Translations under genes and position numbers: made by a program
In this document: positions 23,107-28,616 of the stretch, piece after piece
Layout of the letters: every line of letters begins with the position of its first letter
Numbering within the stretch: the first letter of the stretch is position 1
NCBI RefSeq assembly: GCF_003182275.1
Contig: NZ_QGTR01000002.1
Span: 1-64,000, forward strand
DNA length: 64,000 bases
DNA from: Hoeflea marina
GTDB taxonomy: Bacteria > Pseudomonadota > Alphaproteobacteria > Rhizobiales > Rhizobiaceae
Direction: 5' to 3'
Notes under the pieces: generated by a model
What the model was told of the DNA's origin: nothing
Databases searched by the model: none
Seen by the model: only the letters and a program-made list of their open reading frames with translations

Positions 23107-24396
<1,290 letters not shown>

Positions 24397-24635: not shown

Positions 24636-26072
24636 ATGGCGGAGCAGAAGATTTTCGCCGGACCGCGCATCCGCCGCATCCGCAACGCCAAGGAGCTGAC
24701 CCAGACCGCCATGGCCGAGGCGCTGGGCATCTCGCCGTCCTATCTCAACCTGATCGAGCGCAACCAGCGGCCGCTGACCGTGCAGCTGCTGCTCAAGCTG
24801 TCCTCGGTGTTCAGGATCGAGATCGACGAGCTGCAGGGAGAAACCGGCGCCACTCTCGCCTCGCTCAAGGAGGTGTTCGCCGACCCGCTGCTCTCGGGGG
24901 AACTGCCCGGCGACCAGGAGGTGATCGAGATCGCCGACGGGGCTCCCAACGCCTCCGCCGCCATCATCAAGCTCTACCGCGCCTATCGCGAGCAGGCGGG
25001 CCGGCTTTCCGATCTCTCCGCCATGCTGGCCAGCGAGGGCCACAGTCCGGCGCTGGCGGGTGCCCGCCTGCCCATCGACGAGGTCCGCGAAGCCATGGAC
25101 GGCCGCGGCAATCACTATCCGGCGCTCGAGGAGGAGGCCGAAGCCTTCCACGCCCTGCTCAAGCCCGGCGACGACCTGATGGGGTCGCTCAAGGCCTGGC
25201 TGAAGACCGAGCATGGCATTGTCGTGCGCGCATTGCCGGTGGCGACCATGCCGAACTGGCGCCGCCGCTATGACCGCCATTCCCAGCGCCTCTTTCTCTC
25301 CGAGCGGCTGTCCCCCTTCGACCAGTTGCGCGAGGTGGCGATGGAAGCGGCGCAGATCCGCATGAGCGTCGCCATCGCCGCCGGGGTCAACGATCTCAGG
25401 CTGACCAGCGACGAGGCCCGCCGCATTGCCCGTTTCGAGATGGCGCGTTACGCCGCGCACGCCTTGATGATGCCCTACCAGGCCTATCTCGCCGCCGCCC
25501 AGCGCGCCCGCTACGACATCGACGTGCTGCGCTCGCGCTTCGGCGTCTCCTTCGAGCAGGCGGCCAACCGGCTGACGACGCTGGCGCGGCCCGGTGCGCC
25601 GGGCGTGCCCTTCTTCATGCTGGAGGTGGACGTGGCCGGCCACCATTTTCGCCGCGCCGGCGCCCAGGGCTTTCCGCAGCAGCGCTTCGGCGGCCTGTGC
25701 CCCAAGCTGTCGATCCATGCCGCGTTCGGGCAGCCGGGACAGATCCTGGTCGAGGCGGTGCAGATGCCGGGCGGCGCCGAGTTCCTCACGCTTTCGCGCA
25801 CGCTCGAGGGCCCGCAGGGCGCCTATTCCGAGCGGCCGCGCCGCACCGCCATCCTCATCGGCTGCGACATCGGCTTCGCCGACGACACGGTGTATGGCGA
25901 GGCGCTGCCGATGACCGCAGGGCGGCCGCCGCAGCGCTCCGTCATCGCCGTCGGCCCCGCCTGCCGCCTCTGCGAGCGCTCCGGCTGCCTCGCCCGCGCC
26001 GAGCCGCCGATCACCCGGCCGCTCGGGCTCGATGAAATGGTCACCGGCCTGTCGGCATTTGATTTCCAGTAA
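24636..26072 (+). CDS. XRE-family acyl-metabolism regulator (ScfR/RamB type)
   Basis: Cytoplasmic DNA-binding regulator of 478 aa. An XRE helix-turn-helix fills residues ~8-70 (RIRRIRNAKELTQTAMAEAL, then GISPSYLNLIERNQRPLT). An IrrE/ImmA-like (DUF955) domain is near 180-300 (HSQRLFLSERLSPFDQLRE and MARYAAHALMMPY). The C-terminal DUF2083 part has CRLCERSGCLARAEPPI. In actinobacteria the related RamB and in alphaproteobacteria ScfR-type proteins control glyoxylate or short-chain acyl metabolism, so control of the divergent aceA is expected. Its last 39 residues are encoded again at 27162-27281. Confidence 0.87.
   Translation: MAEQKIFAGPRIRRIRNAKELTQTAMAEALGISPSYLNLIERNQRPLTVQLLLKLSSVFRIEIDELQGETGATLASLKEVFADPLLSGELPGDQEVIEIADGAPNASAAIIKLYRAYREQAGRLSDLSAMLASEGHSPALAGARLPIDEVREAMDGRGNHYPALEEEAEAFHALLKPGDDLMGSLKAWLKTEHGIVVRALPVATMPNWRRRYDRHSQRLFLSERLSPFDQLREVAMEAAQIRMSVAIAAGVNDLRLTSDEARRIARFEMARYAAHALMMPYQAYLAAAQRARYDIDVLRSRFGVSFEQAANRLTTLARPGAPGVPFFMLEVDVAGHHFRRAGAQGFPQQRFGGLCPKLSIHAAFGQPGQILVEAVQMPGGAEFLTLSRTLEGPQGAYSERPRRTAILIGCDIGFADDTVYGEALPMTAGRPPQRSVIAVGPACRLCERSGCLARAEPPITRPLGLDEMVTGLSAFDFQ
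25952..26072 (+). repeat. Copy 1 of 121-bp direct repeat (3' end of scfR)
   Basis: This stretch repeats at 27161-27281, 1209 bp further on. The two copies encode the same 39 residues but differ at 13 sense-codon positions, all silent third bases, plus TAA versus TGA stops. Similarity begins abruptly at 25952 and ends at the stop codon. Confidence 0.93.
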
Positions 26073-26087
26073 CGCAGGGTACCGGCT

Positions 26088-26663
26088 TCAACCGCCACCG
26101 AGTATCCGCTGCGCACCTTCGTGTAACAGCACCGGCAGAAGCTCGGGGCCTTCCAGATATCCAATCTCGAGCAATCCGTCAGAGAGGGCGACAAGCAGGC
26201 TTGCGGCAATCGAAGGGCGAGCTATCCCCGCACTGCTTGCCAGATCCCGAATGCGTCCATGATACCAGCGACGACGGGCCGCGATGGCCTGTCGCACTGG
26301 ACTGCCGGGGTCGGCATATTCGGCGGCGGCGTTCAGAAACGGGCAGCCGCGGAAATTCTCCGTCGCCGCCGCGTCCACTATCCGCTCCAGCATCGATATG
26401 ATCAGCTCCCGCGGCGGTTTGTCCGGAAGCTGCGCGACTGCCGCACGCCCGATCTTGTCCTGCTCCTCGATGTAGGTCTTCACCAGATCGTCCTTGGACG
26501 GAAAGTGATTGTAGAAGGTCGCTTTGGCCACCCCGGACTCGGCGATAATCCGGTCGACGCCGATCGAATGGATGCCATTCAAGTAGAACAGGCGGGTTGC
26601 AGTTTCGATCAGCCGCTGCCGGGGAGGGCTTGCAGGTAAGGTTTTTGCACTCTGGTTCTTCAT
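26088..26663 (-). CDS. TetR/AcrR-family transcriptional regulator
   Basis: Cytoplasmic repressor of 191 aa. The TetR helix-turn-helix is near residues 16-62 (LFYLNGIHSIGVDRIIAESG then VAKATFYNHFPSKDDLV), followed by a helical ligand domain with a FRGCPFLNAAAEYADP stretch typical of TetR_C proteins. It is divergent from a SnoaL-like gene with two dyads between them, and convergent with scfR. Base composition looks lower in GC than its neighbours. The pair sits within a direct repeat and probably arrived by transfer. Confidence 0.88.
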   Translation of the reverse strand: MKNQSAKTLPASPPRQRLIETATRLFYLNGIHSIGVDRIIAESGVAKATFYNHFPSKDDLVKTYIEEQDKIGRAAVAQLPDKPPRELIISMLERIVDAAATENFRGCPFLNAAAEYADPGSPVRQAIAARRRWYHGRIRDLASSAGIARPSIAASLLVALSDGLLEIGYLEGPELLPVLLHEGAQRILGGG

Positions 26664-26677
26664 CGCTTGACACTAGC

Positions 26678-26722
26678 AGACAGATTAGTCTACTTCAACA
26701 GCCATACAGACAGGTCTGTATG
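26678..26722. promoter_or_regulatory. TetR-type operator dyads between tetR and the SnoaL-like gene
   Basis: CATACAGAC (26703-26711) and GTCTGTATG (26714-26722) form a 9-bp-arm palindrome with a 2-bp centre. A related sequence, CAGACAGATTAGTCTA, lies at about 26677-26692. The downstream dyad ends 16 bp before the ATG at 26738, so the TetR protein probably represses both directions. Confidence 0.65.
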
Positions 26723-26737
26723 AAGAGGGAGTTGAAC

Positions 26738-27127
26738 ATGAAGCACTTGACTACCGACGAAGTGATGAAGCTTTTCAATCAGGCGTTTCTGGAGCACCGG
26801 CCATCGCTGCTGGCGGATTTGGTCGCCCCCGACTGCGTCATGGAATCAATCCAGCCGGCGCCGAACGGCACCCGATACGAAGGCGGTAAGGTGTGTGCCG
26901 CGTTCTGGGAGGAACTCGCGGCTGACCGCCTTTCGCAATTCGAGTTGGAGGACACTGTCGTCACGAATGACCGGGCGGTTATTCGCTGGCGGTTCAACTT
27001 TGGAGACGGCCAATCGGTGCGAGGCGTCAATCTGATGCAGGTGCGCAATGGTCAGATCGTGGAGGCGCTTGGCTATTCCAAGTCTCCCGGACAGTCCGCT
27101 CCTCTGCCGGAGACGACCGGAAATTAG
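26738..27127 (+). CDS. SnoaL-like (NTF2-fold) protein
   Basis: Predicted cytoplasmic protein of 129 aa with the cone-shaped NTF2/SnoaL fold (VMKLFNQAFLEHRPSLLADL, then APDCVMES and VRGVNLMQVRNGQIVEALGY). The ATG at 26738 follows AGGGAG at good spacing; an ATG 18 nt upstream overlaps the operator. It is divergent from a TetR gene that probably represses it. Family members are small-molecule isomerases, hydrolases or binding proteins, and the substrate cannot be inferred here. Confidence 0.8.
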   Translation: MKHLTTDEVMKLFNQAFLEHRPSLLADLVAPDCVMESIQPAPNGTRYEGGKVCAAFWEELAADRLSQFELEDTVVTNDRAVIRWRFNFGDGQSVRGVNLMQVRNGQIVEALGYSKSPGQSAPLPETTGN

Positions 27128-27160
27128 TGGCGTCGAAGCAGGCGGGGACGGTCCGGATGC

Positions 27161-27281
27161 CGGCCCCGCCTGCCGGCTGTGCGAGCGCTCCGGCTGCCTG
27201 GCCCGCGCCGAGCCGCCGATCACCCGGCCCCTGGGCCTCGACGAGATGGTGACCGGACTTTCGGCCTTCGATTTCCAGTGA
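27161..27281 (+). repeat. Copy 2 of 121-bp direct repeat
   Basis: Matches 25952-26072 at an offset of 1209 bp with identical translation and only silent differences. It marks the right end of the tetR-SnoaL insertion. Confidence 0.93.
27162..27281 (+). pseudogene. Orphan 3' fragment of an scfR-type gene
   Basis: Codes the last 39 residues (GPACRLCERSGCLARAEPPI through SAFDFQ) identically to ScfR, but has no promoter, start or upstream domain. It is left behind by, or delivered with, the event that placed tetR and the SnoaL-like gene after scfR. All differences from the intact gene are synonymous, so each copy evolved under selection in an intact gene before they were brought together. Confidence 0.85.
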
Positions 27282-27521
27282 ACGGCCCCGGATTGGCACC
27301 TTCCGGTGCGGCCGGCCTGCCACAGCCCGGAGCTGCAGGTGCGGTGCGGTATCCCGCGACCGGGCGCGGCCAGGAAATGGCCGACTTGCTCTTGTGCAAC
27401 GTGAGATTCGTCTTAAGGTTACCCATCCGCCGCACCCGGCAGCAAGCCTGGGACGCGGACACTCTTCCCGGTGCGGCCCTGCGCGGCCCGGGTGACAGAT
27501 CAGAGAACGAGAGGAACAGGC

Positions 27522-28616
27522 ATGAACCTGAAGACCCGCCTTCTAACCGCCGCCGCCCTGCTGGCGGCCACGACCATGATGGCTTCCGCCCAGGAGCGAG
27601 TCGTCAATGTCTACAACTGGTCCGACTACATCGACGAGAGCATCCTCGAGGAGTTCACCAAGGAGACCGGCATCAAGGTGGTCTACGACGTCTATGATTC
27701 CAACGAGGTGCTGGAAACCAAGCTGCTGGCCGGCTCGACGGGCTACGATCTCGTGGTGCCGACGGGCACCTTCCTCGCCCGCCAGATCCAGGCCGGCGTG
27801 TATCAGAAGCTCGACAAGTCGAAACTGCCCAACCTGAGCAACATGGACCCGAAGATCAGCGAGCGGCTTGCCAAATACGATCCCGGCAACGAGCACGCCA
27901 TCAACTACATGTGGGGCACCACCGGCCTCGGCATCAATGTCGACATGGTCAAGGAGCGCCTCGGCGATCAGCCGCTCAACACCTGGGATATCGTCTTCAA
28001 GCCCGAGCTGATTTCCAAGCTCGCCGATTGCGGCGTCTACATGCTCGACACCTCCGAGGAGATCATTCCCGCCGCGCTCAACTATCTCGGTCTCGATCCC
28101 GATTCCAACAGCCCCGACGACATCGCCAAGGCCGAGGAGCTGCTGCAGACCATCCGCCCGAGCGTCAAGAAATTCCACTCCTCGGAATACATCAACGCGC
28201 TCGCCAACGGCGACATCTGCCTGGCCGTCGGCTGGTCGGGCGACATCCTGCAGGCGCGCGACCGGGCCGCGGAAGCCGATCAGGGCGTCAAGGTCGAATA
28301 TGTCATTCCGAAGGAAGGCGCGCTGATGTGGTTCGACAGCTTTGCCATTCCCGCCGATGCAAAGCATGTGGAAGAGGCACATGAGTTCCTCAACTACATG
28401 ATGAAGCCGGAGGTGGCGGCCAAGGCGTCGAACTATGTCTATTACGCCAACGGCAACCTCGCCTCGAAGGAATTCCTCAACGAGGATGTCATCGGCGATG
28501 CTGCGATCTATCCCGACGAGGCCACTTTCGGCCGCCTCTACTCCACGTCGCCGAAGGACCAGCGCACCCAGCGGGTGCTGACAAGAGCCTGGACGAAAAT
28601 CGTCACCGGCCAGTGA
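27522..28616 (+). CDS. potF: Putrescine ABC transporter substrate-binding protein
   Basis: Periplasmic polyamine receptor of 364 aa. A signal peptide (MNLKTRLLTAAALLAATTMMASA) is followed by the PotD/PotF family start VVNVYNWSDYIDESILEEFTKE; aspartates and aromatics in MWGTTGLGIN and VGWSGDILQARDRA line the binding cleft in the family. The ATG at 27522 follows GAGGAACAGG. First gene of potFGHI. It is followed by an attenuating terminator that would allow surplus receptor. Putrescine specificity is inferred from overall resemblance to PotF. Confidence 0.88.
   Translation: MNLKTRLLTAAALLAATTMMASAQERVVNVYNWSDYIDESILEEFTKETGIKVVYDVYDSNEVLETKLLAGSTGYDLVVPTGTFLARQIQAGVYQKLDKSKLPNLSNMDPKISERLAKYDPGNEHAINYMWGTTGLGINVDMVKERLGDQPLNTWDIVFKPELISKLADCGVYMLDTSEEIIPAALNYLGLDPDSNSPDDIAKAEELLQTIRPSVKKFHSSEYINALANGDICLAVGWSGDILQARDRAAEADQGVKVEYVIPKEGALMWFDSFAIPADAKHVEEAHEFLNYMMKPEVAAKASNYVYYANGNLASKEFLNEDVIGDAAIYPDEATFGRLYSTSPKDQRTQRVLTRAWTKIVTGQ

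Follow-up and report, generated by a model that had tools for sequence, protein, structure and literature searches.

A tetR-SnoaL gene pair flanked by two silently diverged copies of the scfR 3' end in Hoeflea marina

The DNA analyzed here (the window) comprises 64,000 nucleotides of Hoeflea marina (contig NZ_QGTR01000002.1, positions 1 to 64,000 of the forward strand), and our subject is a tetR-SnoaL gene pair that lies behind scfR and is flanked by two copies of the scfR 3' end. The scfR gene (24636 to 26072, plus strand) is intact and encodes 478 residues, in which Pfam recognized HTH_3, the IrrE-like Peptidase_M78 domain, and the ScfRs C-terminal domain (PF01381, PF06114, and PF09856); these domains, together with the motif C-R-L-C-E-R-S-G-C in both copies of the repeat, identify the ScfR family. 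Copy 1 of the repeat (25952 to 26072, plus strand) lies within this gene. It is followed by a gene for a tetR-family regulator of 191 residues (26088 to 26663, minus strand; Pfam TetR_N and TetR_C_13), which is convergent with scfR and ends 15 bp from the scfR stop, and by a gene for a SnoaL-like protein of 129 residues (26738 to 27127, plus strand; Pfam SnoaL_2). Copy 2 (27161 to 27281, plus strand) is an orphan tail with its own stop and with no scfR body in front of it. A spacer then leads to the gene for a potF-like polyamine-binding protein (27522 to 28616, plus strand; Pfam and NCBIfam), the first gene of potFGHI.

The two copies were recovered by both a repeat search and alignment. They are identical at 107 of 121 bases and make up the longest direct repeat between 22 and 32 kb (119 nt at 89% in the repeat search). 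The sense part of copy 1 consists of 39 codons (25953 to 26069), and copy 2 encodes the same 39 residues. Of the 14 differences, 13 fall among the 117 sense bases, every one of them silent and at codon position 3, and the remaining one lies in the stop codon, which is TAA in copy 1 and TGA in copy 2. Identical runs measure 15 nt at the join and at most 29 nt inside the repeat. This is the repeat that an earlier reading of the sequence alone (the sequence-only reading) had described, and the alignment confirmed that the gene-tail repeat around the cassette is real. Upstream of the repeat, the two flanking sequences look unrelated by eye. Moreover, on visual comparison the bases before 27161 do not resemble the linkers of scfR in the window or in other species; copy 2 is therefore a bare tail, and by this by-eye comparison the right join is nonhomologous in character.

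In this segment, 27% of random changes would be silent, and the probability that all 13 of 13 would be silent is 3.9e-8 (9.1e-8 with a transition weight of 2). The copies match at 104 of 117 bases, while pairs among 16 species of the genus average 99.4 (range, 94 to 109), and the silent distance between the copies (dS, synonymous substitutions per synonymous site) is ~0.60. Because all 13 sense differences are silent and the divergence is about that found between species of the genus, we conclude that each tail evolved in its own intact gene before the two were joined, as the sequence-only reading had argued. Since no amino acid difference was found across ~85 sites, copy 2 would have been an unselected orphan for no more than ~12% of the period that has passed since the two tails parted.

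The surroundings of copy 2 were compared with 17 other genomes of the genus, two of which are incomplete (G007, 77%; G008, 75%). The distance from the scfR tail to potF, stop counted, is 217 to 253 bp in 16 of the 17, and it is 243 bp after copy 2; the exception, G015, has 4,585 bp. No SnoaL relative at an E value of ≤1e-10 was found in any of the 17, with G007 and G008 being incomplete to the extent given above. In an alignment with the 16 relatives, the spacer of the window (27282 to 27521, plus strand) is of the ancestral type and contains a conserved potF upstream block (about 27388 to 27437). By eye, this block is close to that of seven of the 16 (G003, G007, G008, G010, G011, G013, and G016), and the other nine have a second type. 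Because both the spacer length and the upstream block match those of genus relatives, copy 2 stands in the ancestral tail position, and this makes copy 1 plus tetR/SnoaL look like the added part. Relatives that lack the cassette and have a single scfR end near potF had been anticipated, and these genomes supply them. The layout that the sequence-only reading gave for S. meliloti, with nothing between scfR and potF, likewise agrees with pSymB of strain Ak57, where ~345 bp, too short for the pair, separate the scfR match from a potF-like gene (the gene table of Ak57 is incomplete and does not list scfR). The combination of a cassette and an intact orphan tail was seen only in the genome of the window.

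The interior between the copies (26073 to 27160; 1,088 bp) encodes nothing beyond tetR and SnoaL. Its G+C (guanine plus cytosine) content is 59.7%, compared to 66.1% for the window, which places it in the lowest 1.9% of 315 windows of the same size. Between the two genes, dyad comparison identified a perfect dyad, CATACAGAC-AG-GTCTGTATG (26703 to 26722; a 20-mer with arms of 9 and 9), that is likely a TetR operator; a first, degenerate operator-like dyad, recognized by eye in the same promoter region (26673 to 26692), matches the position of the first dyad of relatives. The description of the interior as a low-GC divergent pair with dyads thus held in each of its parts. We surveyed 64 loci (the window and 63 fetched loci with SnoaL), with tetR required to align over >150 residues and SnoaL to be at least 55% identical over >90 residues. 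Both genes were present in 38 loci, 27 of them distinct. The aligned starts of tetR and SnoaL were ≤116 bp apart in 25 of these 27 pairs, and ACAGAC half-sites lay between the genes in all 27, by eye mostly as two dyads; the window has the same ACAGAC/GTCTGT dyads between its genes, the first being degenerate. These results indicated that the divergent tetR/SnoaL pair is a recurrent unit. TetR is predicted to repress both its own gene and SnoaL through the dyads.

We consider it probable, if by no means assured, that the locus is a recombination scar, in which a foreign scfR 3' end and tetR-SnoaL were imported with homology on one side and an illegitimate join on the other. The ancestral state would have been scfR, a spacer of 0.24 kb, and potF. 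The incoming fragment would have consisted of the 3' part of scfR from another lineage followed directly by the divergent tetR/SnoaL pair. On the left side, homologous recombination would have occurred somewhere in scfR; on the right side, an illegitimate join would have formed where the native scfR tail begins. The outcome would be an intact scfR with foreign last 39 codons (copy 1, presumably the foreign copy), the cassette, and the native tail (copy 2) stranded on the potF promoter region. One-sided homology with an illegitimate far end would produce this layout in a single event.

Such a mechanism would resemble homology-facilitated illegitimate recombination, which PMC3240628 describes for Acinetobacter, Pseudomonas stutzeri, and Streptococcus pneumoniae. 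The same source reports such one-sided events for bacteria with natural competence as well as for conjugation in E. coli, the inserts and deletions measuring ~1 kb and the microhomology 3 to 10 bp. The likeness lies in homology at one end, an illegitimate other end, and an insert of ~1 kb; the usual products described there lose ~1 kb of recipient DNA, whereas the native scfR tail survives, and the event at scfR is a natural one. The same mechanism has been proposed for orphan ends at type VI secretion system (T6SS) and Rhs loci (PMC5361080). As in the displacement of 3' modules of T6SS effectors and Rhs proteins discussed in that source, which leaves orphan immunity genes or 3' ends, a new 3' module would have arrived and the old end would have been pushed downstream as an orphan. 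In contrast to those systems, the displaced scfR end encodes the same residues, so that this part of the product is unchanged; furthermore, the target is a metabolic regulator and the cargo is tetR-SnoaL. The locus, so read, exemplifies a type of event already described elsewhere, and its traces are unusually easy to read. Gene-end scars of this type are expected to fade when selection no longer holds the orphan end. At scfR, the strong conservation of the protein end allows the join to be dated by silent sites and told from a tandem duplication. A test for paired tails, all-silent differences, and an orphan in ancestral context could count one-sided imports in nature across many genomes.

Several observations weigh against this import. 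Events of this type are called rare in the accounts given in PMC3240628 and PMC5361080, and the former adds that the DNA lost generally equals roughly the amount gained; no large loss of native DNA is evident at the locus. In the tail tree, the two copies are not separated, and their being sisters was not rejected by the approximately unbiased test (p-AU = 0.496). When plain identity is counted, the closest tail to copy 1 is copy 2 (104; next, 103), and the closest to copy 2 is that of G012 (107). A sliding comparison along scfR, whose reading frame runs unbroken through copy 1, gave no clear mosaic breakpoint by which the homologous anchor might be located, and the crossover that the sequence-only reading had placed inside the shared 3' end found no support there. 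Codon usage, referred to seven of nine window genes (2,480 codons), marked neither copy as foreign (log-likelihoods of -29.8 and -26.2, compared to -28.1 with a standard deviation of 4.5 for scfR windows). No close donor was found either. SnoaL relatives (E ≤ 1e-12) occurred in 31 of 394 family genomes, including that of the window, the best other match being 72%; a contig search, from which near records may be left out, gave 34 SnoaL loci with a best match of 75% (Mesorhizobium Root554); and the best TetR match was about 65%. Because the tail tree, the sliding comparison, and codon usage do not discriminate, the donor, the direction, and the crossover point are those that we infer.

Alternative routes to the same layout were weighed. 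One would proceed in two steps, with a second whole scfR from another lineage, accompanied by tetR-SnoaL, added beside the native gene, both genes retained for a while, and the native gene later deleted save for its tail. The end product would be the same, and G269 does have two whole scfR genes, on different contigs (contamination estimate, 9). Nevertheless, an extra event is required, and a second search, at 1e-6, of the 78 family genomes other than the window's with at least two tail matches revealed no whole scfR genes in tandem; we regard this course as unlikely, though worth keeping in mind. Another would reverse the direction, with tetR-SnoaL behind scfR being the older arrangement of this lineage and an scfR tail, spacer, and 5' part of potF arriving from another genus member, with potF as the homologous anchor and an illegitimate join behind SnoaL. 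Three Mesorhizobium species have a tetR/SnoaL pair in the same interval, and the genus is slightly closer to copy 2 (102.4 of 117) than to copy 1 (99.7). Relative to the genus, the distance of the window is lowest for potF (ratio of 1.40, compared to 1.69 to 2.42 for seven other genes, among them aceA at 2.42, scfR at 2.18, potG at 2.26, and asmA at 1.72), and in the potF tree it lies among genus members, a placement with weak support (69 and 81). The window's genome is the most divergent genus member for the major facilitator superfamily (MFS) gene, aceA, scfR, and asmA. The trees of the other genes put it outside the rest (scfR and asmA), outside the main class (potG and potI), or together with part of the genus (aceA and the MFS gene). 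Since these trees were midpoint rooted with no outgroup, a place outside the genus reflects branch length. Besides the weak potF support, the reversal is opposed by the low GC content of the interior and by the Mesorhizobium pairs, which other open frames part from scfR and whose sister relationship to the window pair was neither found nor rejected. We regard it as rather unlikely.

Prophage e14 in icd is an integrative element with a replacement gene tail, and a remnant of such an element in the scfR 3' end, its integrase since lost, would give the same order of gene body, replacement tail, cargo, and old tail. Here, tetR and SnoaL fill the 1,088-bp interior, in which no integrase was found, and no inverted repeat pairs its two ends. 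In the 63 other SnoaL loci (flanks of 1.5 to 6 kb), no scfR tail was seen apart from scfR (in L039 the gene is truncated where the locus ends, whereas it is whole in L122), and none of seven open reading frames scanned from two other inserts, four from G015 and three from L070, is an integrase. This origin is accordingly improbable. An autonomous element was rejected, its integrase and terminal inverted repeats both being absent from the interior. Rfam at gathering thresholds reported nothing between 23 and 32 kb. Simple tandem duplication followed by drift would account for direct repeats in one genome, and the sisterhood of the copies was not rejected; an orphan copy would have gained amino acid changes, though, and the all-silent pattern, with its probability below 1e-7, disfavors this history, unless selection acts on the protein encoded by the orphan tail itself; we give it very little credence. 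An assembly chimera of two species would explain why the structure was seen in one genome only. In opposition to this, the contig spans 1.03 Mb with a contamination estimate of 0, the genes to the left and to the right alike are outliers in comparison with the genus (see the ratios above), and the copies share just 15 identical nt at the join and 29 nt at most, making an artifact highly improbable.

A donor of the predicted type, in which tetR-SnoaL follows an scfR end closer to copy 1, found partial support. Three of 34 named SnoaL loci, all from Mesorhizobium (L070, L077, and L080), have a homologous pair between scfR and potF. In these loci, the pair is set apart from scfR by other open frames, and the interval also holds an EamA-like transporter and, in two of the three, an S41-like protein (Pfam was run on L070, and the L077 and L080 proteins were likened to it by sequence). 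Their tails are nearer to copy 2 (95, 97, and 93 of 114) than to copy 1 (91), and none of the three has an orphan tail. The Mesorhizobium pair groups with Devosia, and the window pair groups weakly, on a long branch, with Mesorhizobium Root554; a single clade of the window and the three Mesorhizobium pairs was neither found nor rejected (p-AU = 0.241). Either such pairs entered the scfR-potF interval on separate occasions or their position there dates far back. SnoaL matches were also found in 35 plasmid records (best, 69.6%), the tetR matches in 32 phage records were all below 60%, and the interior DNA was matched in none of 20 relatives.

Other genomes carry different open frames between scfR and potF, and the interval therefore tolerates cargo. 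A minimal mobile element consists of variable genes between two conserved genes, swapped through flank homology. The interval is like one in carrying different genes across genomes and unlike one in that a clean exchange would leave no orphan tail. A tentative and rather unlikely extension is that the interval is a recurrent cassette-exchange site of the family, with the near-invariant tail and its iron-sulfur motif as anchor and the protein end of the regulator left unchanged; its cargo would be tetR-SnoaL here, perhaps separately in Mesorhizobium, and a toxin-antitoxin/MFS set in G015. The G015 insert (L112, 10924 to 15509; 4.6 kb) encodes a zinc alcohol dehydrogenase, an Xre/MbcA antitoxin with a RES-domain protein, and an MFS transporter. 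The genus also has two allele classes of potFGHI (L099, L107, L110, and L112 versus the rest), with ~78% potF protein identity between them. The types of potF upstream block do not coincide with these classes, a disagreement that suggests recombination around potF in the genus.

An inverted-repeat search revealed a 14-nt repeat (93%) across the right junction (27138 to 27173, plus strand), whose left arm (27138 to 27151) lies in the cassette and whose right arm (27160 to 27173) is the start of copy 2. An equal or better repeat arose in 16 of 5,000 shuffles and at 17 of 9,133 places in the window (~0.2 to 0.3% chance), for a feature noticed after the fact. The hairpin may be either a terminator, possibly that of SnoaL, or a scar of the join; it was not among the terminators reported by a terminator scan, and the RNA fold of 27118 to 27200 was not unusual (z = -0.88). 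A fold-back scar was set aside as a reading of this repeat, given the post hoc find, the fold score, and the possible terminator.

In Mycobacterium tuberculosis PrpR, a [4Fe4S] cluster is bound by 447-C-X2-C-X4-C-455, according to PMC6765138. The scfR tail motif C-R-L-C-E-R-S-G-C fits this pattern and, by analogy, is probably a [4Fe4S] ligand motif. The last 38 scfR residues are 92 to 100% identical across 16 genus loci; a motif of the cluster-binding type would explain why this end hardly varies, and the tail seems to be duplicated with silent differences only because both versions encode this strongly conserved segment. The top NCBIfam model for the scfR product was RamB (NF038139) at 307 bits; since the cutoff is 700, scfR was not filed as RamB. 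In Paracoccus, as reported in PMC10370305, the glyoxylate cycle is controlled by RamB of the ScfR family. Isocitrate lyase is encoded next to scfR by the divergent aceA (23107 to 24396, minus strand; Pfam and NCBIfam), a layout shared by 15 of 17 genus relatives, i.e., all those in which the fetched sequence extends as far as aceA (the contigs of G007 and G008 start inside scfR). As a pointer to a RamB role, this adjacency is only suggestive.

Tail matches at an E value of ≤1e-4 were found in 359 of 394 family genomes. The two scfR genes of G269 (C11:755965 and C16:418131) have equal tail scores, and this assembly is possibly mixed. Weak second matches in G138 and G211 lie in full-length frames. 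Among the matches listed, three tails are in short frames: those of G239 and G129 are at contig ends, and that of G106 belongs to an scfR with in-frame stops. In G106 (L117, 3025 to 4437), these stops lie shortly before an intact tail and may reflect a pseudogene or a sequencing error. Neighboring scfR tails at an E value of ≤1e-6 were seen in one other genome of the 394, G127, in which scfR is decayed. There (L125, C180; 319 to 432 and 1476 to 1589), an orphan tail comes first, then a decayed 3' remnant of scfR that an in-frame stop interrupts, and after this remnant an EamA-like frame, recognized by eye, and potF.

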